DNA of 64,000 bases, from the NCBI GenBank assembly GCA_029864805.1, contig JAOTSS010000001.1, positions 1-64,000 of the forward strand, given 5' to 3'. The notes beneath the pieces are model-generated. The model saw only the letters and a program-made list of their open reading frames with translations, was not told the origin of the DNA and did not search any database. This document shows, piece by piece, positions 5,188 to 28,512 of the stretch. The position numbers were made by a program, and so were the translations under genes. Numbering within the stretch: the stretch's first letter is position 1; each line of letters begins with the position of its first letter. This DNA comes from Candidatus Nitrosopumilus sp. (lineage in GTDB: Archaea; Thermoproteota; Nitrososphaeria; Nitrososphaerales; Nitrosopumilaceae).

Positions 5188-5745
5188 TTATTTTTCTAAA
5201 CCTTTCTTTTTCTCAAATGAATATATGCCATCAAGAAAAACTCTGTGGTCTTTGTTTTTTACTTTCGTTTTAAGTTCTATGTTTGCCGCAGTTTGAGTAA
5301 TGTCTGTCCAAACTTCACCAGTTAGAATTACGTCTTCTCCTTTAGGGATTACTTTGGTATTGCCTACAATTTTTGTAACTCTTGGTGCTCTTTCTCCCTG
5401 GAAGTTTTCAATTAGAATTTTTTTGCCCTCTACTTTTAATGTAATTGGAAAATGTGCATAGACAATTTTCATTTTAATTGTGTAACCATCTACTAGGCCT
5501 TCACAAATATTTCTGATAATGGATCTTGCAGTATGTAAAATTGCATAATCTCTCTTTCTACTTCCAATTGCATTTAGGATGACTTTGTTTTCTGTAATCT
5601 CGATGTTAATTGGAATACTTCGAAAACTTTTGAATGTTTTACCTAGAGGTCCCACAAATGATAACATGTGTTTGTTTAGTGTAAGTTTGACTCCTTCTGG
5701 GATGATGACCTCGTCTTGAAATTTTTCCATCTGCTTAGTAGACAT
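5188..5745 (-). CDS. rpl6: ribosomal protein uL6
   Basis: A 185-residue archaeal uL6, with the two alpha/beta repeats of the family (HMLSFVGPLGKTFKSF near residue 27 and a second copy after mid-protein). It binds 23S rRNA near the sarcin-ricin/GTPase centre. The ATG at 5745 overlaps the 3' end of rps8 by 11 nt. It is the last ribosomal gene of this transcript, whereas many archaea continue with rpl32e, rpl19e, rpl18 and rps5. Confidence 0.95.
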   Translation of the reverse strand: MSTKQMEKFQDEVIIPEGVKLTLNKHMLSFVGPLGKTFKSFRSIPINIEITENKVILNAIGSRKRDYAILHTARSIIRNICEGLVDGYTIKMKIVYAHFPITLKVEGKKILIENFQGERAPRVTKIVGNTKVIPKGEDVILTGEVWTDITQTAANIELKTKVKNKDHRVFLDGIYSFEKKKGLEK

Positions 5746-6127
5746 ATCCTATCAAAAACCCTCCAATTCCTTTTTCTGATGCGTCATGATGTGACATTAC
5801 TCCTTGATTTGTTGTAACTAGTAACATTCCTCTATCATAAGCGGGCAAGTACTGCTGTTCCCAATTATTATATTCGTCAGTTTTCACTTTGAATCTCGGT
5901 GAAATAGCTCCACATTTTGTAATTTTTGCCAATAATTTAATCTTGAATTTACCTCCCCTTTTATCGTCAATATGCTCAAACTCTCCAATGTATCCGTCTT
6001 TTTGGAGTGTCTTTAGAACCTCAATTCCTAACTTTGATGTTGGAAGAATCACACAGTCACCCTTTCTTCTTGTTTCATTGTTGTATAATGTGACAAATAG
6101 ATTTGCTAAAATGTTAGTTGCTGGCAT
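5735..6127 (-). CDS. rps8: ribosomal protein uS8
   Basis: A 130-residue archaeal uS8: N-terminal NILANLFVTLYNNETRRKG and a C-terminal segment GMLLVTTNQGVMSHHDASEK, the conserved rRNA-binding region of the family. It binds the central domain of 16S rRNA early in 30S assembly. Located 7 nt after rps14, overlapping rpl6. Confidence 0.95.
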   Translation of the reverse strand: MPATNILANLFVTLYNNETRRKGDCVILPTSKLGIEVLKTLQKDGYIGEFEHIDDKRGGKFKIKLLAKITKCGAISPRFKVKTDEYNNWEQQYLPAYDRGMLLVTTNQGVMSHHDASEKGIGGFLIGYVY

Positions 6128-6133
6128 CTTATA

Positions 6134-6313
6134 TCACTTATTTTTCCTAAACCCTAAAGATGTTGCGACTTCTCTGAAGCATCGTCTGCATAACATTAAA
6201 TCATATTTTTGAATAACAGCTGTATAATCCCCACACCTTTTACACCATCGTGAACCTCGTCCAAAGTCGTGTTTTTTTCTTCCAGTGGCTTCATATGATC
6301 TATCTTTTGCCAT
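6134..6313 (-). CDS. rps14: ribosomal protein uS14 (zinc-binding form)
   Basis: A 59-residue protein read from the ATG at 6313, which overlaps the rpl5 stop (TAATG). Four cysteines, C24, C27, C42 and C45, form the zinc ribbon of the archaeal-type uS14, and the basic N-terminus plus C-terminal GFRKNK fit the family. It is in its usual place between rpl5 and rps8. Confidence 0.95.
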   Translation of the reverse strand: MAKDRSYEATGRKKHDFGRGSRWCKRCGDYTAVIQKYDLMLCRRCFREVATSLGFRKNK

Positions 6314-6834
6314 TATGCTACTGTCACTCCAAATTCTTTAACTAGATAATCCTTTGCTTCTTGACTGCTAATGATGTGTTTTTTTCCAACACTTGCTTTG
6401 TGTTTACTTCTGGTTCTAATCCCGTATCCTGGTCTTGTAAGTGTGATGGAAATTCCTAAACCTAAAATTCCTATCTGTGGATCGTATTTTACTCCTGGTA
6501 TGTCTATGTGCTCTTTAATTCCAAATGAATAATTTCCAAAATTGTCAAATGATTTTCCGTTAACTACATTACCTTTTGCTTCTAACAATCTTTTTAGCAA
6601 TTCTTTTGCATCATTACCTCGAATTGTAACTGCTGCACCTATTGGTTCTCCCTTTCTAACCCCCCAATCTCTTTGTGTTTCTTTTGCAGCTCTTGAGGAT
6701 GATTTTTTTCCTGATATCTGATCAAGTGCTCTTTTTGCAATATCGATAATATCTCCTGATTTTCCTACTCCCATGTTAAGAACTACTTTCTCAAGGGAAA
6801 TTTTTTTCATTATTGGTTCTGTTGTTTGAGACAT
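6313..6834 (-). CDS. rpl5: ribosomal protein uL5
   Basis: A 173-residue archaeal uL5 with KVVLNMGVGKSGD at the N-terminus and the GIKEHIDIPGVKYDP and GLGISITLTRPGYGI segments of the family. It binds 5S rRNA and helix 84 of 23S rRNA in the central protuberance. The stop overlaps the start of rps14, and rps4e lies 4 nt upstream. Confidence 0.95.
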   Translation of the reverse strand: MSQTTEPIMKKISLEKVVLNMGVGKSGDIIDIAKRALDQISGKKSSSRAAKETQRDWGVRKGEPIGAAVTIRGNDAKELLKRLLEAKGNVVNGKSFDNFGNYSFGIKEHIDIPGVKYDPQIGILGLGISITLTRPGYGIRTRSKHKASVGKKHIISSQEAKDYLVKEFGVTVA

Positions 6835-6838
6835 ATTA

Positions 6839-7555
6839 TCACTTGATTTGAATTACTGGCTCTCCTTTACCAATTGACATTATGATATCTGCCGGAATCT
6901 CAATTTTTCTGTCTTCTAATGATAATATGACTCTTTTTGGAAGAATGAATGTTCCTTCTTCGATTGTCTCAATCTTTCCAATTCTGCCTGTGTTATTCCC
7001 ACGTGTTACTAGTCCTTGACTGTCTTCTTCTAATTTTATTATTTCAAGAATTTTTACATCTGGAATTTGAATTAAACATGTATCTCCAACATTTACCTTT
7101 TCATCTGAAATAATTGATCGTCCATCATGAAATCCTATCTGGATTTGTCCTTTATTGATCGTAGTTTTGCTGGTGACTATAACTAGTTTTTTTGATTTCT
7201 CTGATTCATTAATCTTTATTGGTTGCAGTAATTTTTCTTTAGTTGGAACCAGACGATAAATATCTGAAACATTTTCCAATTCCACAACATCCATCAATCC
7301 AATTGCATGATGAAGTGATTTTCTTACGATTCCATCAACTTTTACTTTACCTGAATAAATTGCAGTTTTTGCTTCCCTAAGACTTGTTACTATGTTTAAC
7401 ATGTCTCTTAGAAATACTGCTGTTGGTACAGCACGACTTTTTTTATGTGGGCCTGGCTTTACTGTAACTACAAATCTTTTGTTTTTTCTATTAATTCCCC
7501 AAAACTGCGGGGCCATTTGACGTTTGAGTTTTTTACTTCCTGCTATACTTACCAT
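6839..7555 (-). CDS. rps4e: ribosomal protein eS4
   Basis: A 238-residue archaeal/eukaryotic eS4. The N-terminus (GSKKLKRQMAPQFW) and the S4 RNA-binding domain (about residues 40-100) are followed by a C-terminal KOW-type segment. Absent from bacteria, so this gene alone marks the operon as archaeal. Its start overlaps the stop of rpl24 by one base. Confidence 0.95.
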   Translation of the reverse strand: MVSIAGSKKLKRQMAPQFWGINRKNKRFVVTVKPGPHKKSRAVPTAVFLRDMLNIVTSLREAKTAIYSGKVKVDGIVRKSLHHAIGLMDVVELENVSDIYRLVPTKEKLLQPIKINESEKSKKLVIVTSKTTINKGQIQIGFHDGRSIISDEKVNVGDTCLIQIPDVKILEIIKLEEDSQGLVTRGNNTGRIGKIETIEEGTFILPKRVILSLEDRKIEIPADIIMSIGKGEPVIQIK

Positions 7556-7968
7556 TAATTCTCATCTTCCTTTTTTTCAGTTTTTTCTACCTCTTTTGTT
7601 TCTTTAGGCTGGTTACTAGGATTCTTACCCTCTAGTTTTGAAATTCTCCACTTGTCATCAGTATTAAGCGAAGTTACTAGCAGATTAGATGTGTGAATAT
7701 ATACGTCAAATTTATCTCCTTTTGTTTTCTCTTTCTTAATTCCTTCAATTGCAACACTATTTTTTTGAGTAGACACTTTGGATATTTTTCCTTCAACTCC
7801 TTTGAACTCTCCTCTGAGTATGGTTACACTGTCGCCTTCAATTGCACGAACACTTCTTTTTCCGTATTTTTTACGGAGATCTTTCGACAATGTACTTCCA
7901 AGTTGCTTACTTCTTGTATGGAATGTTGCACGATAAATCATATTGTTGCGCATCTTTGTTGGTTTCAT
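7555..7968 (-). CDS. rpl24: ribosomal protein uL24
   Basis: A 137-residue archaeal uL24, with the KOW motif ([23 protein letters not shown], about residues 40-62) that starts 50S assembly at the 5' end of 23S rRNA. The C-terminal 25 residues are a Lys/Glu-rich tail. Placed between rpl14 and rps4e as in other archaea. Confidence 0.95.
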
Positions 7969-7972
7969 TTTC

Positions 7973-8395
7973 TTATACCACCATTGATGCCAAATTAGCT
8001 ACTCTTGGCCATTTTTCAGAAGCTTCTGCTGCTACTGGTCCTTTGATGTCTGTTCCTTTTGTTTCTCCCTCAGGGGTGATTAACACGGCTGCATTATCTT
8101 CAAAACAAACTCTTACACCATTTAACCTGCGAACTGCATATTTTTGTCTAATAATTACTGCTCCGTAGACTTGCTTTCTTAATTCTGCTGGTCCTTTTTT
8201 TACTACCACATTACAGAAATCCCCTACTGCTGCTGCAGGAAGTCTGGACACTCTTGTTTTGTGTCTTGGAACATTGATAATTTCTAAAATTTTAGCACCA
8301 GAGTTATCTGCACATACAATATTTGCACCTACAGGAATTGATCTGGTAACATATGGGCGGAATTCTTCTACTCCTTTACCTGCTTGTTTTGCCAT
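7973..8395 (-). CDS. rpl14: ribosomal protein uL14
   Basis: A 140-residue uL14, with the [11 protein letters not shown] motif near residue 30 and VVVKKGP in the middle, hallmarks of the family. It sits at the subunit interface and contacts 16S rRNA helix 14. The start overlaps the rps17 stop by one base, so coupled translation is likely. Confidence 0.95.
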
Positions 8396-8718
8396 TATGC
8401 TTTAACCTCTACAACAACATATGAGACTGATTTTGAGATAGGTCTACATTCTGCAGTTAAAACATGATTTCCTGTTTCAACATCAATACACTCTGGTACA
8501 TGTGCATGAATGTTGCTTGTCCCTCTGGCATATCTCTTAAATTTACTAAAGTAAATTGGTGCATCTTTTTGTAATGTGATAGTTTGCTTTGCCTTACTTC
8601 CTGTTACTTTACCGTCAAAGAGTTTTCCTCTGATTGATAGATTTCCGTGGAATGGACAATGCTTGTCTGTGCATTGCTCTTTTGGTTCTTTTACTTTAAG
8701 TCCTATATCACGTGTCAT
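8395..8718 (-). CDS. rps17: ribosomal protein uS17
   Basis: A 107-residue archaeal uS17, longer than the bacterial form, with an N-terminal extension (LKVKEPKEQCTDKHCPFHGNL) carrying Cys residues, and the OB-fold core (LFDGKVTGSKAKQTI). It binds the 5' domain of 16S rRNA. Overlaps rnp1 by 4 nt. Confidence 0.95.
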   Translation of the reverse strand: MTRDIGLKVKEPKEQCTDKHCPFHGNLSIRGKLFDGKVTGSKAKQTITLQKDAPIYFSKFKRYARGTSNIHAHVPECIDVETGNHVLTAECRPISKSVSYVVVEVKA

Positions 8719-8981
8719 GCCTTTGCCCCTAATCTGTCAAATGGTCTTTTGGTAATTTTAGTTCCTTCTACAATCACATCTTTGTTCTCAATTGAGAATT
8801 TCCAGCTGTTTGTAGATTTTGCAATTGATTTGACCCCATTTTCTGTATTTATTGTAAGCATTGATTTTGTTTCATTTATGATTCTTCCATTTAATCCTAT
8901 AACTTGAGGATTTGTAGATTTGACAATCTCTGTGTTCAACCCAATGAATTCATGTGATGTTATGTTGTCTGCTGTAATCAT
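8715..8981 (-). CDS. rnp1: ribonuclease P protein component 1 (Rpp29/Pop4)
   Basis: An 88-residue protein of the Rpp29 family: a small Sm-like beta barrel with the conserved HEFIGLNTEIVKSTNPQ and GLNGRIINETKSML segments. It is one of the archaeal protein subunits of RNase P, which removes the 5' leader of pre-tRNAs. Its place between rpl29 and rps17 is the usual archaeal one. Many Euryarchaeota carry a SUI1/eIF1 gene just before it; none is seen here. Confidence 0.85.
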   Translation of the reverse strand: MITADNITSHEFIGLNTEIVKSTNPQVIGLNGRIINETKSMLTINTENGVKSIAKSTNSWKFSIENKDVIVEGTKITKRPFDRLGAKA

Positions 8982-9184
8982 TTTTGTTTTTTCATCTCAT
9001 TTACTCTGGTTAGCATTCTTGCAATGTCGTGACGAAGTGGTTTTAGTTTACCACTCTCTTTTCTTAGTGTGCCTTTTGAAGCGTCAACTCTGAGTTTTGC
9101 TAGTTCACTACGTGCTTCTTGAATCTTACTTTTAAGATCTTTTTCATTTAATTGGTTAATTGTCTTCATGCTTATTCTGGTCAT
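8978..9184 (-). CDS. rpl29: ribosomal protein uL29
   Basis: A 68-residue two-helix uL29 ([21 protein letters not shown], then [21 protein letters not shown]), close to the peptide exit tunnel where it helps dock chaperones and the translocon. Overlaps both neighbours by 4 nt, so it is translated within a tightly coupled series. Confidence 0.93.
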
Positions 9185-9936
9185 TTTAGTCTGACCTCTT
9201 CTTCTTCTAGGGTTTCAAGTTCTTTCATCTTTTCTTCTTCAAGTGCAATCTGTTCTGATTCTGTTCTTGCTTTAGTCTCTGCTGCAGTTTCGTCTCTCAT
9301 TTTTCCTGTTCCTTTATCTTTGATTTGTTTCGTCTCCATAGCTTTTTCGGTCTTCATTTCAAATTCTGGAACGAGTTTGGCTTTATTGGCAATTCTTATC
9401 CTAATTCCGATTAAACCCATTGCTGTTTTTACATGTGCAATGTCTTCTGCAACAATTACTTCTGCATGGTGACCTGCTCTGGGCAATATCCCTGCTGTAT
9501 GTTTTTCAAATGCAGATCTGTCACCTCTAAGTTTGCCTGAAATGGTAATTTGAACTCCCATAGCACCATTTTCCATAATTTGTTTTAATGTCCACATTGT
9601 TGCCCTTCTAAAAGCAGTGCCTCTTTCAAGATGAGCTGCCATTCTATTACACATTACACTTGGAGCTAATTCTGGTTTTTCAATTTCTACTACTGAAATT
9701 TGTGGATTTTTCAATCCAAAGTCTGCTGCAAGTTTGTCTGTAAGTGCTCTGATTCCAGAACCTTTTCTTCCAATAACAATGCCTGGTCTAGTAACATGTA
9801 GTGCAACTCTTGTACCTACTGGGGTCTTTGCAATCTCTGCATGTGAGAATCCTGCATCCTTAATTGCCTCTCTGAGATAATCTTTGAGAAGCATCATGTT
9901 GTAGTTATCTTTGATTACGTTTTTGACTGCTGACAT
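9181..9936 (-). CDS. rps3: ribosomal protein uS3
   Basis: A 251-residue archaeal uS3. The KH domain GxxG motif appears in [18 protein letters not shown] (about residues 53-70), followed by the C-terminal S3 domain and an unusually Glu/Lys-rich tail from about residue 205. Binds 16S rRNA at the mRNA entry site. Overlaps rpl29 and lies one base after rpl22. Confidence 0.95.
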
Positions 9937-9937
9937 G

Positions 9938-10396
9938 TTATACCTCCTGTGCCACCAACTCTACGTGAGTCAATACATTATTTTTGGGAGTTGCTCTTCC
10001 CATAGCCCTTGGAATGAATCTTTTTACAATAACGCCCTTGTGAACAGTAGCATTTACAATTCTTAATCTGTCTAAATCCATTCCCTTGTATTCTGCATTT
10101 GATTCTAAATTGTCTAAAACTTTAATGAATTCCTTTGCTGTTTTTTGTGGATAACGTCCTGCCATCATTCCAGGATCTGCTTTGTGTCCAACCTGATTTT
10201 TATATCTTCTAAATGCGACAGCTCTTTTTTTGTTAATCACTGCAATAAGATAGTCTCTTGCTTTTTCAATTGATAACCCTTTGATGGAAACTGCTACTTC
10301 ACGTGCATGTTTGTGTGAAATGTCTTTTTCTCTTAATGCGGAACGGACATGTTTTGTTGCGTCATAGTTTTGGAAAGCGTAATTGAATCTACTCAT
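9938..10396 (-). CDS. rpl22: ribosomal protein uL22
   Basis: An archaeal uL22 of 152 residues from the ATG at 10396 ([19 protein letters not shown]); a GTG at 10405 overlapping the rps19 stop as GTGA would add three codons and cannot be excluded. The family signature [18 protein letters not shown] is present, and the beta hairpin reaching the exit tunnel lies near the C-terminus. Confidence 0.93.
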
Positions 10397-10401
10397 AATA
10401 A

Positions 10402-10797
10402 TCACTTTAGTGGCACGTAGAGACTGGATCTTGATGCGCCTACACCTGGTGCACCGTGTGAAACTCTCTTGTTTGTTATTACATATTCTCCTAAATAATG
10501 TCCAATCATTTCAGATGTGATGCTTACTGGACGAAATTCTTTTCCTGAAAATACATTTACTGTAACACCTACCATATATGGTAAGACGATCAAATCCCTA
10601 ACATGAGTTTTGATTGGATTTTTTACTTTGCCTGCTTTTGCAGCTTTGATTTCCTCAATTAACTTTCTCTTTCCGTCAGTAATTCCTCTTGTAAGGGATC
10701 TTCTTTGTCTAGAGTTGAATAACAAGAATAATTTTTCTAGGGACAAACCATCAAGCTCCTCTTTTGGAATACCTCTGTATAGAAATTCTTTAACCAT
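10402..10797 (-). CDS. rps19: ribosomal protein uS19
   Basis: A 131-residue archaeal uS19 with the conserved core (KTHVRDLIVLPYMVGVTVNV and FRPVSITSEMIGHYLGEYVITNKRVSHGAPGVGAS). Located in the head of the 30S subunit, near the A site. It follows rpl23 after 44 nt; rpl2, normally between them in archaea, is missing here. Confidence 0.95.
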   Translation of the reverse strand: MVKEFLYRGIPKEELDGLSLEKLFLLFNSRQRRSLTRGITDGKRKLIEEIKAAKAGKVKNPIKTHVRDLIVLPYMVGVTVNVFSGKEFRPVSITSEMIGHYLGEYVITNKRVSHGAPGVGASRSSLYVPLK

Positions 10798-10841
10798 CCT
10801 TTTTCTCCTCTGTTAGTGTACTTCGAGTTTTCTGGTCCATA

Positions 10842-11108
10842 TTATAGCATTCCTATCTTTGTTGCCAAATCTCTGGCTTTTGCAGTGTTTTCGAATTGAA
10901 CAAATGCTTTTTTGCCATAAATTGTTCTTGCAGTATTGACGTCAGTGACATTTTCTTTGTAAAGTGCTTTTACAGCTTCGGCAATTTCCGGTTTACTTGC
11001 TGATCGTTCTACAATAAAACAAATCTTGCTTTCGTTTTCTACCATTGCAAACGTTTTTTCAGTAATGTATGGTTTAAGAATAATCTTACCTGCCTGATCT
11101 ATATTCAT
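10842..11108 (-). CDS. rpl23: ribosomal protein uL23
   Basis: An 88-residue uL23 with the typical start IILKPYITEKTFAMVE and the closing NTARTIYGKKAFVQF strand region. It surrounds the peptide exit and is the docking site for SRP. Overlaps rpl4 by 4 nt. Confidence 0.95.
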   Translation of the reverse strand: MNIDQAGKIILKPYITEKTFAMVENESKICFIVERSASKPEIAEAVKALYKENVTDVNTARTIYGKKAFVQFENTAKARDLATKIGML

Positions 11109-11917
11109 TGTATTTTCACCATGACCTCAAGATGCGTTGATTTGATTTTTCCGATTTCTTCAATTGCAGATTTGGAATACACTGTTAATCTAATTGGATC
11201 TGAACCAGGTGCTAAATCCAATACACTCAAATTTTTAACACTCTTTGCTTCTACCCCCGGTAATACTCCTATTGCTTTTTTAATACTTGAATCATCTTTG
11301 GTAACAAACAAAACACTTTTTCCAACTTTTTTACTTCTTCCCCTAAGTCTTGATTGCCCTGAACGTGATTTTCTTGCTTCTAACCTTTTCACATCTTGTG
11401 TTAGTTTTAGAGCATCAAGTATTTTGGTCATTTCGTTTGTTTTTGAAATCGATTCAATGTCATCTGATACGATAATTGGAAACGATTCAATGCCTTCTAT
11501 TTTGTGACCACGTAGTTCGACTAGATCTTTTGATGCAGTTGCAGCAATTGCAGAACACAATGCGAGTTTGTTTTCCTTTTTGTTTAATTTTTTGTAAATT
11601 ACTTTGCCAACAATTGGTGGATGTGCTTGCCTTCCGCCTCTAGTTGATGCGACTTCTGCGCCTTGACCTTGTCTTCCTCCTCCGCCACCACTGCTTCTTG
11701 CAACACGTGAAACACCTTGGCCTGTTGGAGGATCGTTTGAATCTGCAACTACGTCCTGACCTGCAGAAGGATGTCTTCCTTGTGGTTGGAATTTGTGTGA
11801 AGTTAAATTTGTAAAAGCCTTGTGTATTAGTTCTCGTCTAAATGGGGTTGAAAATAATAGTGGTAGTTCTACTTCTCCATCTTTTGTTCCAGTAGTGGTG
11901 TATGTTGCTGTCTTCAT
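11105..11917 (-). CDS. rpl4: ribosomal protein uL4
   Basis: A 270-residue archaeal uL4. The N-terminal part matches the family (VELPLLFSTPFRRELIHKAF); the long loop around residues 60-95 (GGGGGRQGQGAEV) is the extension that lines the exit tunnel. C-terminal domain is standard. Overlaps rpl3 by one base and rpl23 by 4 nt. Confidence 0.95.
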   Translation of the reverse strand: MKTATYTTTGTKDGEVELPLLFSTPFRRELIHKAFTNLTSHKFQPQGRHPSAGQDVVADSNDPPTGQGVSRVARSSGGGGGRQGQGAEVASTRGGRQAHPPIVGKVIYKKLNKKENKLALCSAIAATASKDLVELRGHKIEGIESFPIIVSDDIESISKTNEMTKILDALKLTQDVKRLEARKSRSGQSRLRGRSKKVGKSVLFVTKDDSSIKKAIGVLPGVEAKSVKNLSVLDLAPGSDPIRLTVYSKSAIEEIGKIKSTHLEVMVKIQ

Positions 11918-12909
11918 TATACTACTACCTCCAAAATGTTCGGCTTGTTGACTTTGGCTGGAACATTTCTGATTTGACTTCTCAGTTTGATTAGTCTTCT
12001 ATATGTTCCTGGAACTGAACCTTTTAGAATAATGAAATCTCCCTTCACCAATCCAAAATGCTTGTATCCTCCATCTGGATTGATTTTGATCTTTTCATCA
12101 TCTGTATTTCCCATAATCATAATTCGTTTATCGTATTCTGTTCTTTGATGGAATCCCATTTGTCCTGCCCTCGGTACTGTGTACATGACACTCTGTGGTG
12201 AAATTGGACCTAATGAACCGACTTCTCTGACTGTCTTTCTTGATTTGTGTTGTTTCTTTTTTACTCCCCATCTTTGAATTACTCCTTGCCATCCTTTGCC
12301 TTTGGTAATTGCAGCAACGTCCACACTTGCACCTGTTTCAAAAATTTGATCAATCTTGATTTCTTTTCCAAGCAGTTCTTTTACGTGGGCAAATTGTTTT
12401 TGTATGTCTCCTCCGCTAACTGAAGCTTCAAAAATGTAGGGTTTTTTCTGTTCGAGTCCTGCTGCATGTGGCGAAACTGCAACTATTGCAAAAATCTCTT
12501 TTATTTTTCGAAGGGATTTTTCTGCATTGTCTAATGCCCCTTCTTTGTTTTTTACTGTAATCTCTTTTGATATGTATTTTGGAATATCATCTGCATACAC
12601 ATCAAACTCTGCATGCATTCCATCATGATCTTTTGAATAACCTCTGACTCCTAAAATCAGTACCGGTGGAGTCACTAGAACTGTTCCAAGACTTACAAGC
12701 TGCTTTCCTGCATTTGGAACTTTGTCTCTATCATCAATACTTACTATCTGAACGCATCCTGCCTTGAAACCACAATGAGCCAGAATCTTTGGCTCTTCTG
12801 AATCTAATTTTGGCCATGCTCTAATGCGAGCCTCCATACTTTTTGCACGTACTCTTGGTGAATATGCAAGACTTCCTCTACGTGGTTGATGGTTTTTTCT
12901 AGCGCCCAT
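11917..12909 (-). CDS. rpl3: ribosomal protein uL3, first gene of ribosomal operon
   Basis: A 330-residue archaeal uL3 starting MGARKNHQPRRGSLAYSPRVRAK, with the GKGWQGVIQRWGV and AGQMGFHQRTEYDKRI segments of the peptidyl-transferase-proximal extension. First gene of a 16-gene minus-strand transcript. The ATG at 12909 is preceded by a TATA-like GTTTAATAG (12935-12943) about 28 nt upstream, so the mRNA is probably nearly leaderless; a 14-nt-spaced GTTAACC inverted repeat lies just beyond it. Confidence 0.95.
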   Translation of the reverse strand: MGARKNHQPRRGSLAYSPRVRAKSMEARIRAWPKLDSEEPKILAHCGFKAGCVQIVSIDDRDKVPNAGKQLVSLGTVLVTPPVLILGVRGYSKDHDGMHAEFDVYADDIPKYISKEITVKNKEGALDNAEKSLRKIKEIFAIVAVSPHAAGLEQKKPYIFEASVSGGDIQKQFAHVKELLGKEIKIDQIFETGASVDVAAITKGKGWQGVIQRWGVKKKQHKSRKTVREVGSLGPISPQSVMYTVPRAGQMGFHQRTEYDKRIMIMGNTDDEKIKINPDGGYKHFGLVKGDFIILKGSVPGTYRRLIKLRSQIRNVPAKVNKPNILEVVV

Positions 12910-12951
12910 AGATAAAACGCGTCTCGATTTCCCTCTATTAAACCATGTGAG

Positions 12952-12989
12952 ACATCGTTAACCACAATAATTTTTATGGTTAACGATGT
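12952..12989. promoter_or_regulatory. BirA-box-like inverted repeat upstream of rpl3
   Basis: A 13-bp perfect inverted repeat (ACATCGTTAACCA ... TGGTTAACGATGT) with a 12-nt centre. Aligned to the BirA-type form it reads TCGTTAACC-N14-GGTTAACGA (12955-12986). It ends about 12 nt upstream of the TATA-like box of rpl3 and 46 nt upstream of its ATG, almost the same geometry as the element before bioB (26400-26431). A terminator for the gene at 13002 is a less likely alternative. Confidence 0.6.
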
Positions 12990-13001: not shown

Positions 13002-13133
13002 TTATGGCTTTAGCAGATCTGATGCCATGTTCCAAATGGTGATTCCACCAATAATTATTCCTGCAACCCCTAGTACAATTGCAAACAAAAGAAAGTTCTT
13101 TCTTTCTGGCACACTATGAAATACGTTTGACAT
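13002..13133 (-). CDS. 43-aa single-TM protein
   Basis: A 43-residue protein from the ATG at 13133: a polar N-terminus (SNVFHSVPERKN), one hydrophobic helix (about residues 14-35, rich in Ile/Gly) and a short tail. The size and topology resemble small subunits of membrane complexes, but no family is recognised. TATA-like CATAAAA lies about 20-24 nt upstream. It ends just before the operator/promoter of rpl3. Confidence 0.65.
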   Translation of the reverse strand: MSNVFHSVPERKNFLLFAIVLGVAGIIIGGITIWNMASDLLKP

Positions 13134-24267: not shown

Positions 24268-25398
24268 TCATCTGAATTTTCTAAAAGCTTTTTCAAAAAT
24301 CACGAGCGATTTCTCTATGTCTTTATTTGTTAGCCATGATGTGACTGAAATTCTCAGTCTTGCTTGATTTTTTGGAACTGTGGGATATCTGATTGGTTGC
24401 GCAAATACCCCGTTGTCCATCAAAAATTTCCCAAATTTCATTGCATTTTTTTCATTCCCTATGACTATGGGAATTATGTGTGTTGTAGAAAAAATCTCAA
24501 ATCCTATCTCCTTTAATCCTTTGATTAATTGGTTTGTGTTTTTTTCTAATTTTTCCTTTTGTTTTTCTCTATTTGATTTAAATCTCTTTGTGGAATATTC
24601 GATTAGAAAAGATGGAAGCGCTGAGGTATAGATGAATGATTTTGATTTATTTATGCATAAATCTACTACATTGTTTTTTGATGCAACATATCCTCCAAAA
24701 GATCCTAGGCCTTTGCTTAAACTGCTAATGTACAAATCAATCTTTTTTTCAACATTAAAATAATTTGGCGTTCCTTTTCCATCTTTACCAATCACAAAAT
24801 CACCGTGTGCATCGTCTACTATTGTGATTACATTGTGTTTTTCTGATAATTCAGTAATCTCTTTTAGTGGCGAAAGATCGCCGTCCATGCTGAATACCCC
24901 TTCAGTAATTACAAACTTGTTTTTTCCTTTTAATTTTAACTTTTTTTCTAAATCCTGAACGTCGTTATGTTTGTAAACAATTATTCTTGCATCTGATAAT
25001 TTACATGATTCAATTATGCTTGCATGGTTTAACTCATCACTTAGAATAAGATCCCCTTTTTTTGCAATTGCAGTAATTGCACCTAAATTTGCCATATATC
25101 CTGTAGGATAAACAAGACTTTTCTCCTGTGATTTGTGTTTTGCAAGAATTTCTTCTAATTTCTTGTATGATTCATCATTACCCGATACTAGTCTGGAGCT
25201 TGATTGAAGTTGATTAGTCTGAACATCTGCTGTAACAATTCCCAAATAATCATTTGAGCACAGGTTTAGTAGTTTTTTGTTGTTGATTGTAATGTAGGCG
25301 CCATTTGACTTTCCGTATCGTAATTTTCTATAGATATTTTGTTTCTTTAGTTTTTCTAATTCAGAATCAATAAAGTCTAGTTTATGATTGGAGGCCAA
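24268..25398 (-). CDS. bioF: 8-amino-7-oxononanoate synthase
   Basis: A 376-residue PLP enzyme of the alpha-oxoamine synthase family. It condenses pimeloyl-thioester with L-alanine to 8-amino-7-oxononanoate. Visible features are the NDYLG substrate/PLP region (CSNDYLGIV), the Asp-His pair in VDDAHGD and the PLP lysine in SSLSKGLGSFGG. The start lies inside the bioB 3' end (17-nt overlap), so it is in the same operon. Confidence 0.93.
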   Translation of the reverse strand: MASNHKLDFIDSELEKLKKQNIYRKLRYGKSNGAYITINNKKLLNLCSNDYLGIVTADVQTNQLQSSSRLVSGNDESYKKLEEILAKHKSQEKSLVYPTGYMANLGAITAIAKKGDLILSDELNHASIIESCKLSDARIIVYKHNDVQDLEKKLKLKGKNKFVITEGVFSMDGDLSPLKEITELSEKHNVITIVDDAHGDFVIGKDGKGTPNYFNVEKKIDLYISSLSKGLGSFGGYVASKNNVVDLCINKSKSFIYTSALPSFLIEYSTKRFKSNREKQKEKLEKNTNQLIKGLKEIGFEIFSTTHIIPIVIGNEKNAMKFGKFLMDNGVFAQPIRYPTVPKNQARLRISVTSWLTNKDIEKSLVIFEKAFRKFR

Positions 25399-26359
25399 TT
25401 CTTTCTATTAATTCACGGTCCTTTTTAGCGTCGTTTCCACCCATTGTCAAATACCCCTCAGTGATTATTCCGTTTGCACCGCTTTGCAGTAGTTCTTCAC
25501 CGGAATCATCTAGTTTTGATTCCCTGCCTCCAGAAATTTTGATTACTGATTCTGGCAGTAAAAATCGTATGACTGAAAAAATTCTTACTATCTCAGAATT
25601 TGGAAGATCTGTCTGCAATTCTAGTGGTGTTCCTGGCATTGGAACTAGAATGTTAATTGTTACTTCTTCTGGATACAGTCTCCCTAATTCAAGTGCTAAT
25701 TCCAATCTTTGTTCTCTTGTTTCTCCCAATCCAATAATCCCGCCAGTACACAATTCCAATCCTGCTTCTCTTGCAATGCCTAATGTCTTTAGCCTATCTT
25801 CGTAAGTGTGGGTTGTACAAATTTCTGGAAATTTAGATCTTGCAGTTTCTAAATTATGGTTGTATCTTCTGACTTTGAGTTCTTTTAGTTTTGTTGCTTG
25901 CTCTGGTGTCAAAAAACCTAAACTACACTCAACGCTAATGCCCACTTTGTCATTAATCTCAGAAATGATTTTGCAAACTTTTTCAAAATCTTTTGACGAT
26001 GGCTCTCTCCATGCAGCGACAAGACAATATGATTCTGCACCGTCTTCTTTTGCTTTTTGTGCTTTGCTTACCACTTCGTCTGGTGATGGTAATTGATATG
26101 TCTCTATACCCGTATCAAAAAATGCTGATTGCCCACAAAATGTGCAATCCTCACTACATGCATTTTTTTTAATGTTGTTTAATTGCTCCACATCGACTTT
26201 TCTTCCGTTATATTCCCGGGTAATTCCGTTTGCACATGACGCAAGCTCTTTCAAATCATCTTCTGGAATATTCAATAGTTTTTTTGCATCGTCTGCAGAA
26301 ATACCGACTCCTGAAAATACTCTTTCTTGACATTCTTTGATAAACTCCAGAGTGCTCAT
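25382..26359 (-). CDS. bioB: biotin synthase
   Basis: A 325-residue radical-SAM biotin synthase that inserts sulfur into dethiobiotin. The C68-x3-C72-x2-C75 cluster motif is visible, followed by the TIM-barrel with NHNLETA and GLGETREQRLE. A TATA-like GTTATAAAT (26381-26389) is about 26 nt before the ATG, so the message is leaderless, and a BirA-box-like inverted repeat lies 11 nt beyond the TATA. bioF overlaps its 3' end. Confidence 0.95.
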   Translation of the reverse strand: MSTLEFIKECQERVFSGVGISADDAKKLLNIPEDDLKELASCANGITREYNGRKVDVEQLNNIKKNACSEDCTFCGQSAFFDTGIETYQLPSPDEVVSKAQKAKEDGAESYCLVAAWREPSSKDFEKVCKIISEINDKVGISVECSLGFLTPEQATKLKELKVRRYNHNLETARSKFPEICTTHTYEDRLKTLGIAREAGLELCTGGIIGLGETREQRLELALELGRLYPEEVTINILVPMPGTPLELQTDLPNSEIVRIFSVIRFLLPESVIKISGGRESKLDDSGEELLQSGANGIITEGYLTMGGNDAKKDRELIERIGLQS

Positions 26360-26399
26360 AATGAGAATAAGAAATACTCCATTTATAACAATAATGGAA

Positions 26400-26431
26400 A
26401 GGTTAACCTAATCTTGCATGGGAGTTAACAA
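26400..26431. promoter_or_regulatory. BirA-box-like operator upstream of bioB
   Basis: AGGTTAACC (26400-26408), a 14-nt spacer, and AGTTAACAA (26423-26431). The bacterial/archaeal BirA-box consensus, from memory, is TTGTWAACC-N14/15-GGTTWACAA; the half-sites match at 7/9 and 8/9 positions. It fills the gap between the bioA stop and the bioB TATA-like box. Confidence 0.75.
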
Positions 26432-27754
26432 TCAAATCACTTTTGACTTTGCTGATTCAATAGTAGATATGGTTTTCTCTAAGAGCAAACTCAGTTCTGT
26501 TTCTGTTATTACCAGAGGTGGCACCAACATGACTATGTTTCCAAGGGTTCTAAGGTAGATTCCATTCTTTTTTCCTTCATCAAAAAATATCTTGTTGATT
26601 GATTTTTTGGTATGGATTGCCGTCTTTTTTTCCTTATTTGATACTATTTCTATCCCCATAAGCATTCCTTTATGCCTGATGTCTCCTACAACATCAATTT
26701 CTGAAATCTTTTGATAGTACTCTTCAAAAATTTTGGATGTATTTTGGATTTTTTTAATCAGGTTGTATTTTTTATACATTTTGAGATTTTCTAAAGCAAC
26801 AGCTGCTGCAATGGGGTTTCCAGTGTATGTGTGTCCATGAAACAGATGTTTCCAATCATTAAATTCACCTAAAAATGAATCGTATACTGTCTTGTTTGTC
26901 AATGTGGCAGCCATTGTCAGATATCCACCGGTCAACATTTTGCCGTATGCTACTATGTCTGGAACGCTTTTTTGTTCTTCATATTGAAACATAGAACCTA
27001 GCCTTCCAAAACCAGTTGCTATCTCATCTAAGACAAAAAGTACGTTGTATTTTTTACATAGTTGACTTATTTTTTTCTGAAATCCTTTTGGATAAATTAT
27101 TACGCCTCCTGCTACTTGCGCACCACTTTCCATGATAAATGCCGCAATGTCATTTCTTTGTAAAAATCTCGTTTCAATTTTTTCCAAGCAATGATTTTGA
27201 TAATCTGAAAAAGTAAATCCAGTTGGAACTCTGTATTTATTTGGTACGGGAAATTGCAATGTTGTAAACAATTGTTTTTTAAATTTGCCAAAAAATTCTG
27301 GTACATACCCTACTGACATTGCTCCAAATGTATCTCCATGATACCCATTTTCTAGTGTTGCAATCTTTGTTCTCTTTTTCTCACCAATATTTTTCCAATA
27401 CTGAAGTGCTAATTTGATAGCTATCTCCATTGCTGATGAGCCATTGTCTGAATAAAAGACCTTGTGCATTTCTGGAGATATTTTTACAAGATTTCCTGCT
27501 AGTTTTTCTGCAGGTTCGTTAGTTAGATTAAACATCGATGAATGCTGTAGTTTTTTACTTTGAGTCTTTATTGCACGGATTAATTCTGGATTGGAATGTC
27601 CCCAGACATTACACCACATTGAACCTACCGCATCAACAATTTTTCTCCCTTTTGAATCTGTTAGCCATATCCCTTTGGCGCTCCTTATTTCATCAAAAGA
27701 ATCCCATTCACTCATCTGAGTGTTTGGATGCCAAACAAAACTAGTTTTCTTCAA
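26432..27754 (-). CDS. bioA: adenosylmethionine-8-amino-7-oxononanoate aminotransferase
   Basis: A 440-residue class III aminotransferase that turns 8-amino-7-oxononanoate into diaminopelargonate, normally with SAM as amino donor. VWHPNTQM near the start is the substrate-binding region typical of BioA, and LDEIATGFGRLG with the PLP lysine in YGKMLTGGYLT are present. The start is a TTG at 27754. A TATA-like GGTTATTAAG lies about 26 nt upstream. Divergent to bioD. Confidence 0.93.
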   Translation of the reverse strand: MKKTSFVWHPNTQMSEWDSFDEIRSAKGIWLTDSKGRKIVDAVGSMWCNVWGHSNPELIRAIKTQSKKLQHSSMFNLTNEPAEKLAGNLVKISPEMHKVFYSDNGSSAMEIAIKLALQYWKNIGEKKRTKIATLENGYHGDTFGAMSVGYVPEFFGKFKKQLFTTLQFPVPNKYRVPTGFTFSDYQNHCLEKIETRFLQRNDIAAFIMESGAQVAGGVIIYPKGFQKKISQLCKKYNVLFVLDEIATGFGRLGSMFQYEEQKSVPDIVAYGKMLTGGYLTMAATLTNKTVYDSFLGEFNDWKHLFHGHTYTGNPIAAAVALENLKMYKKYNLIKKIQNTSKIFEEYYQKISEIDVVGDIRHKGMLMGIEIVSNKEKKTAIHTKKSINKIFFDEGKKNGIYLRTLGNIVMLVPPLVITETELSLLLEKTISTIESAKSKVI

Positions 27755-27828
27755 ACAAATCTGGTATCTTTGATCTTCTTAATAACCAAACGATAAGATT
27801 AATCAATTATTGTTTTAGACGATATTTG

Positions 27829-28512
27829 ATGAATTCCTTCTTTATCACTGGAACTGACACTGATGTGGGCAAGACATACGTTACTGCTGGTTTAGCCGTG
27901 ACTCTAAGAAAAATGGGTATTAATGTTGGTGTTATGAAGCCTTTTGCAGCAGGAATTGCTCAGAGGAATGGCTTCAAATCTGAAGATGTTGAAATTTTAT
28001 CCAACGCCGCACAAGTAAATGATCCTGAAAGTTTAGTAAATCCACAATTTTTTCCAATTCCTGCATCACCTTATACTGCTTACAAGAAATTAAAAATAAA
28101 GCCGAAAATCTCAATCGTACTTACAAATTTCAAAAAACTATCAAAACTTCATGATCTGATTCTGGTGGAGGGAATGGGCGGGGTGATGACTCCAATTTTG
28201 AAACATTACTATATTTCTAGTTTGATAAAAGATATGAAAATTCCAACTGTTATTGTCACAAGTAGCAGGATTGGTACTGTAAATCACACCTTGATGACCT
28301 GCATGATGTGCAAAAAATACAAAATTTCAATTAAAGGAATAATCATCAATAATTTTGAAAACGGTTATTCTGTTCCTCAATTAAAAAAAGATCTGGAGGG
28401 TCTCACCGGTGTCAAAGTTTTGGGTTCGATACCGTTCATTAAAAACATGAGCGACGCTTCATTGAATAGAATATTTAAAAAAAATCTTGATATAAATCGC
28501 CTTCTAAAATAA
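27829..28512 (+). CDS. bioD: dethiobiotin synthetase
   Basis: A 227-residue ATP-dependent carboxylase-type enzyme from the ATG at 27829 that closes the ureido ring of dethiobiotin using CO2 and ATP. The P-loop GTDTDVGKTYV is at the N-terminus and the EGMGGV loop near residue 113. Divergently transcribed from bioA; together with bioF and bioB the late biotin pathway is complete in this window. Confidence 0.93.
   Translation: MNSFFITGTDTDVGKTYVTAGLAVTLRKMGINVGVMKPFAAGIAQRNGFKSEDVEILSNAAQVNDPESLVNPQFFPIPASPYTAYKKLKIKPKISIVLTNFKKLSKLHDLILVEGMGGVMTPILKHYYISSLIKDMKIPTVIVTSSRIGTVNHTLMTCMMCKKYKISIKGIIINNFENGYSVPQLKKDLEGLTGVKVLGSIPFIKNMSDASLNRIFKKNLDINRLLK

Follow-up and report, generated by a model that had tools for sequence, protein, structure and literature searches.

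A predicted BirA-type operator at the ribosomal-protein operon promoter of Nitrosopumilus, Nitrosarchaeum, and relatives

The rpl3 and bioB promoters

The window, the whole 64-kb stretch of DNA that was analysed, carries on its minus strand a run of ribosomal-protein genes headed by rpl3, encoding uL3 (11917..12909; Pfam PF00297), with the co-directional genes downstream of it occupying 5188..11917. Within this run, L4, L23, S19, L22, S3, L29, S17, L14, S4e, and L6 were identified by Pfam, and L24, L5, S8, and others were named by reading only. In ribosomal operons rpl2 usually sits between rpl23 and rps19; here rps19 directly follows rpl23 (10797-10842), with no rpl2 between them. The window also holds biotin genes: bioB, encoding biotin synthase (25382..26359, minus strand; Pfam Radical_SAM and BATS), a bioF-like aminotransferase gene that overlaps its end (24268..25398, minus strand; PF00155), a bioA-like aminotransferase gene (26432..27754, minus strand; PF00202), and a bioD-like dethiobiotin synthetase gene on the plus strand (27826..28512; AAA_26).

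Upstream of rpl3, on the minus strand, lies TCGTTAACC-N14-GGTTAACGA, a predicted BirA-type operator (12955..12986) whose core, GTTAACC-N14-GGTTAAC, spans 12957-12984. The core is embedded in a perfect 13-bp inverted repeat (12952-12989) with arms ACATCGTTAACCA (12952-12964) and TGGTTAACGATGT (12977-12989), as an initial annotation of this DNA had described, and is followed after 13 nt by a TATA-like octamer, GTTTAATA (12936..12943, minus strand). A second predicted operator of the same type occupies the bioA-bioB gap (26400..26431, minus strand; core 26402-26429, one arm AGTTAAC), just downstream of the end of the bioA-like gene. It too lies 13 nt from a TATA-like octamer, TTATAAAT (26381..26388, minus strand). 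The cores are 47 nt from the rpl3 ATG (12909) and 42 nt from the bioB ATG (26359), in agreement, within about one base, with the 46 and 41 nt given in the initial annotation. Its further claim that no other GTTAAC pair with this spacing occurs in the window was borne out when gaps of 10 to 25 were scanned: the window has two GTTAAC-N10..25-GTTAAC matches, one at rpl3 and one at bioB, whereas 100 shuffles had none. With up to three mismatches allowed, the 14-base pattern had three matches in the window, and 18 of 100 shuffles yielded as many or more; matches with three mismatches are therefore at chance level, and only the two strong matches, at rpl3 and bioB, were counted.

On the upstream side, a 43-residue ORF with one hydrophobic stretch (13002-13133, minus strand) stops 12 nt short of the rpl3 palindrome. 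Judged by eye, many relatives seem to have the C-terminal end of this ORF before their rpl3 as well.

Conservation of the rpl3 box and its likeness to BirA sites

Conservation was assessed in 80 rpl3 loci of relatives together with the window, the dyad being sought up to 140 nt upstream of the gene. A strict dyad was present in 69 of the 81 sequences, always with a gap of 16 nt between the two GTTAAC motifs. Since the count was defined by GTTAAC, those columns are perfect by design; outside the search pattern, T at -2 occurs in 68/69 and A at +29 in 69/69. In the spacer, C at 6 (93%) and G at 21 (86%) stand out from the remaining columns (39-84%), the 5′ flank from -25 to -3 is conserved at 39-83%, and the columns separating the box from the TATA are also rather well conserved, mostly at 70-83%. 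Column conservation among relatives thus gives a symmetric half-site T-S-GTTAACC at rpl3. Outside T-N-GTTAACC, the arms are mostly non-complementary in relatives (complementary in 18/69 at -1/28, 17/69 at -3/30, and 13/69 at -4/31); unlike these inner pairs, the pair -5/32 is complementary in 52/69. The 13-bp length of the repeat in the window is partly accidental. The distance from the rpl3 box to TTTAWWA is 14 nt in 60/69 relatives and 15 nt in 9/69, the element itself being mainly TTTAATA (44/69) or TTTATTA (23/69) in boxed promoters; many unboxed promoters have elements resembling TATATAAT or TTATAATG. At bioB, read by eye, Nitrosopumilus and the lineages with GTAAAC boxes have roughly 10-14 nt between the box and a TATA-like element, and Nitrosopelagicus-type genomes have 2 nt.

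In a tree of 108 rpl3 proteins, which includes some near-duplicates (one genome contributes the same protein twice, as L066 and L265) and omits L292, L293, and L294 because the start was absent or the protein was too short, all 70 rows with the dyad fall within one 71-row clade comprising Nitrosopumilus, Nitrosarchaeum, and relatives (support 99/96). The 71st row, L041, has the rpl3 dyad with a single mismatch, so the simplest history is one gain and no full loss. The initial annotation had considered that the palindrome might be absent from close relatives; its retention in 70 of 71 clade rows is the opposite outcome. Beyond this clade, the rpl3 box is missing in Nitrosopelagicus, in G035 and G007, and in the GTAAAC lineages seen, despite their BirA helix-turn-helix (HTH). 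A lone GGTTAACGAC that some outgroups (L065, L068, L070, L072-L076, L267) carry immediately after the rpl3 TATA was considered as a relocated half-site and rejected. At the equivalent position, deeper lineages have GGTTTACGAC, GGTACTCGAC, or GCTTTTCGAC, and L079 has GGTAAACGAC; because the stretch varies in this way it resembles a drifting core-promoter segment, and no BirA site was counted. Outgroup rpl3 promoters (L267-L293) also show a recurring segment right after the TATA (GGGGTTWACGAC, GGGGTACTCGAC, GGGCTTTTCGAC), which may be a core-promoter element.

Across 200 genomes of the family, the loose pattern GTTAAC-N15..17-GTTAAC was present in 109, with 0-3 matches per genome and 0-7 in the backwards control. 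As this is not above the control, frequency alone proves nothing, and it is placement that is informative. The two loose matches in each of G001-G005 are those at rpl3 and bioB, and the single match in G006, the genome of L061 (Nitrosarchaeum sp. BD3), is at rpl3. Fifty-eight dyad places (those returned, plus 20 regions chosen among the matches listed for the loose pattern) comprise 27 at rpl3, 26 at bioB, and five elsewhere. In 11 genomes, the strict 14-base pattern with at most one mismatch matched at 13 places, against five for the backwards control, and 12 of the 13 lie at rpl3 or bioB. Strict matches are therefore not spread over the 11 genomes searched in the way expected of a motif occurring at chance throughout the genome, an outcome the initial annotation had allowed for; the same 12 of 13 places disfavour its second reading, in which the motif belongs to a wider regulator of growth. 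The sole GTTAACC-N14-GGTTAAC within one mismatch outside rpl3 and bioB in these 11 genomes is L208 (G004:C25:58792-58819). G018 has one additional dyad at an unrelated place (L100). Another GTTAAC dyad, probably there by chance, precedes an ORF named by reading as Orc1/Cdc6-like (L309, G020:C108:60-87), in a genome whose BirA ORF leaves no room for an HTH.

The rpl3 box resembles the boxes found at bioB. A weight matrix was built from 24 bioB boxes of other genomes, using half-site columns only and leaving the window's own bioB box out of training. In the window it ranked the rpl3 box first, with a score of 29.99 of a possible 31.96, followed by the bioB box (22.47) and, far below, the next place (3.84); the best score in 200 first-order Markov sequences of 64 kb was 20.69. 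Similarity extends to bacterial operators, for which the published BirA consensus is TTGTAAACC-N14/15-GGTTTACAA, with the Geobacter metallireducens bioB site listed as TTGTtAACC-N14-aGTTgACAA (PMC545781). Each rpl3 half-site matches this consensus at 7/9 positions and differs at 2/9, and the spacing is exact. Compared with the bacterial operator, the inverted 9-bp half-sites, the AACC...GGTT inner ends, the N14 spacing, the one or two sites per genome, and the presence in relatives of a BirA with an HTH are shared (PMC545781). In contrast, half-sites at rpl3 mostly read T(C/G)GTTAACC, a ribosomal-protein operon is targeted, and the site lies upstream of an archaeal TATA-like element.

In sister lineages, the published BirA consensus core is itself present at bioB. 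Of 300 genomes from the class, 27 have a single GTAAACC-N13..15-GGTTTAC each, which precedes bioB in 20, follows bioA at the end of a contig in one, and lies elsewhere in six. By its sequence, the bioB box is a BirA box. Two instances of GTAAACC-N15-GGTTTAC (L212 in G322 and L213 in G309) lie about 640 nt from an ORF read as inositol-monophosphatase-like, away from bio genes and rpl3. The study of the archaeal BirA regulon by Rodionov et al. in 2002 is said to have placed BirA signals at bio genes in archaea, as in the present case, and reportedly differs from it in naming biotin and carboxylase targets and no ribosomal one. The classical biotin regulon comprises genes of biotin synthesis, transport, or use; bioB falls within it and the rpl3 operon outside. 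Targets of BirA beyond biotin genes are also described for E. coli O157, with the fur promoter and 55 potential ChIP-seq sites reported (PMC4382993). Those are ChIP peaks in one strain, whereas the rpl3 box is a single, predicted, clade-conserved box at one ribosomal operon. No earlier report linking a BirA box to a ribosomal operon was found in search listings of the open-licence literature.

BirA and the separation of its predicted targets

BirA was found in 36/36, 28/30, and 13/14 genomes in three sets that repeat some genomes, mostly as ORFs of about 335 residues. There was one BirA per genome in 35 of the 36, and the BirA of the 36th (G080) is in two pieces. An N-terminal HTH_11 domain and BPL domains were detected by Pfam in the two proteins of relatives that were scanned, and the BirA repressor model TIGR00122 matches three proteins of relatives, below its curated cut-off. 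The HTH motif could be read in 56 genomes of relatives. The recognition helix has SRVA (Val) in 26/26 genomes with a GTTAAC bioB box, a class that includes G060 with one mismatch in the box, and in 0/19 genomes with a GTAAAC bioB box, where 17 helices have R-A-A, one SRTA, and one SREA; the latter class numbers 21 genomes, with helices from 19 (none from G047 and G167), and includes G153, whose contig ends before bioB. G011 and G031, whose BirA frames each contain one stop in the draft genome so that the HTH motif alone was read, combine an Ala helix and GTAAAC boxes with an HTH otherwise mostly shared with the GTTAAC group. Mixed cases also occur: BirA of G008 and G080 is of the Val type, yet one half at bioB is GTAAAC, and G199 (L041) has a Val helix, yet a GTAAAC half at rpl3. 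In G008, the helix is altered to SRVAVREHI, and the boxes are degenerate at both rpl3 (ATTAACC..GATTAAC, L266) and bioB (GTAAACC..GGTTAAC, L188). The BirA recognition helix thus covaries with the bioB box; since the genomes are related, few evolutionary events may underlie this pattern. Every BirA helix read in the dyad clade is of the Val type, which leaves no contrast at rpl3, and the covariation is one measured at bioB.

Three genomes that appear to have lost the HTH have no dyad at rpl3: G012, where it is decayed by eye, and G020 and G053, whose ORFs of 258 and 253 residues leave no room for it, the assignment of G053 being made by ORF length alone. G012, the sole HTH-loss genome in which the region upstream of bioB was seen, has no bioB box either. 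Many HTH-bearing genomes, however, are without an rpl3 box, and the HTH-less G020 has one dyad elsewhere.

The rpl3 and bioB boxes can occur without each other. In the Nitrosopelagicus/marine group I genomes G040 (L074), G152 (L072), G076, and G110, the bioB box is present and there is no rpl3 dyad. The reverse was seen in seven Nitrosarchaeum-type genomes (G006, G019, G036, G065, G073, G096, and G108) and in G018, where no bioB box was found in the 120 nt before bioB, and the rpl3 box and a BirA HTH with a Val-type helix are kept. In G006, G019, G036, and G108, scanning of the 17-20 kb that hold rpl3 and bioB returned the rpl3 dyad only, and outside the rpl3 box nothing in these genomes matches the strict pattern within one mismatch. 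The two targets are therefore separable, and the loss patterns of the two boxes and the HTH indicate that the rpl3 box is kept at least as strongly as the bioB box. We infer that in some lineages the rpl3 box is the sole recognisable reason for BirA to keep its DNA-binding domain. If BirA governs bio genes, the absence of a box at Nitrosarchaeum bioB calls for explanation; a diverged BirA site may conceivably be present there. The seven Nitrosarchaeum-type bioB promoters (L175-L178, L180, L182, L185) share ACGCAYRAA about 33 nt before TTTTTTAAT, in a conserved CTAATCTTTTTTAAT core, a candidate site for a replacement regulator. It is tentatively suggested that in the Nitrosarchaeum type and, as a separate case, in G018, BirA no longer targets biotin genes and would now be a dedicated regulator of the ribosomal operon, a vitamin ligase reading carboxylase demand to set ribosome synthesis.

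Proposed control of the ribosomal operon

The rpl3 palindrome is quite likely to be an operator that is recognised by BirA, a biotin-protein ligase doubling as a DNA-binding repressor, and that was recruited once to the promoter of the ribosomal operon in the ancestor of Nitrosopumilus, Nitrosarchaeum, and relatives; BirA would most likely control this operon either alongside biotin synthesis or in its place. This prediction agrees with the first reading of the initial annotation, in which one regulator joins biotin supply to ribosome synthesis; that reading finds support at the level of sequence in the box, its spacing, its distance from the TATA, the BirA HTH in most relatives examined, and the helix covariation at bioB. 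In the mechanism proposed, BirA charged with biotinyl-5′-AMP would dimerise and occupy the two half-sites, and its footprint would extend to the BRE/TATA and hinder TBP/TFB. Expression of rpl3, and of bioB where it is boxed, would be repressed when biotin is ample and there is little apo-carboxylase to biotinylate, and would be released while new carboxylase is being made, thereby coupling ribosome synthesis to biotin and carboxylase (CO2-fixation) status.

The E. coli operator, which BirA binds with biotin to repress, measures 40 bp (PMC4382993), and on this scale a BirA dimer on a box so close to the TATA would come near the BRE. Because of this position, repression through hindered TBP/TFB is favoured as the direction of control at rpl3 and is judged the likelier of the two; activation is a lesser but serious prospect, kept in play by the near-fixed distance between box and TATA at rpl3 and by the change from a TATATAAT-like to a TTTAATA-like core. 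Spelled out as a full alternative, in which BirA on a dyad immediately before the BRE aids a weak core promoter by recruiting TBP/TFB, activation is on the whole unlikely, even though the TTTAATA/TTTATTA elements of boxed promoters, set beside the TATATAAT- and TTATAATG-like elements of unboxed ones, look as if a strong core had been swapped for a weaker one plus an operator. BirA is known as a repressor, and the 2-nt separation at Nitrosopelagicus-type bioB puts the same box in a blocking position. With either direction, the signal would be biotin supply versus carboxylase demand.

It is more doubtful still that another regulator binds at rpl3, and perhaps at bioB too, with the site being merely similar to a BirA box. 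Such a regulator would account for the persistence of the rpl3 box without a bioB box in Nitrosarchaeum-type genomes and G018, and for the reverse in the Nitrosopelagicus type. However, half-site, orientation, and spacing equal those of the bioB boxes, the weight matrix transfers from one to the other, the BirA HTH is retained where rpl3 holds the only box seen, and the three HTH-loss genomes are without an rpl3 dyad. A role in RNA, as a hairpin that terminates the upstream small gene or acts in a leader, is very improbable: although the repeat in the window is perfect over 13 bp and a 43-codon ORF ends 12 nt before it, arm complementarity outside the core is mostly lost in relatives, and the box lies outside the rpl3 transcript if the TATA element is rightly assigned. 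That the palindrome arose by chance in AT-rich DNA, where loose GTTAAC pairs occur at about control rates, is hardly credible for a box that stays near-invariant across a clade, next to a more variable spacer and 5′ flank, and whose weight-matrix score was reached by none of the 200 random 64-kb sequences.

Binding by BirA thus being the preferred reading, the promoter of the main ribosomal operon in this clade of ammonia-oxidising archaea probably shares with the bioB promoter a DNA signal read by BirA. Little is settled about the way archaea adjust ribosome synthesis to their growth, and ammonia-oxidising archaea fix CO2 via a biotin-dependent carboxylase. If true, the presence of a BirA box at this promoter would let biotin and carboxylase status act directly on ribosome output, and the question of how ribosomes are coupled to growth would become testable with one protein and one promoter.
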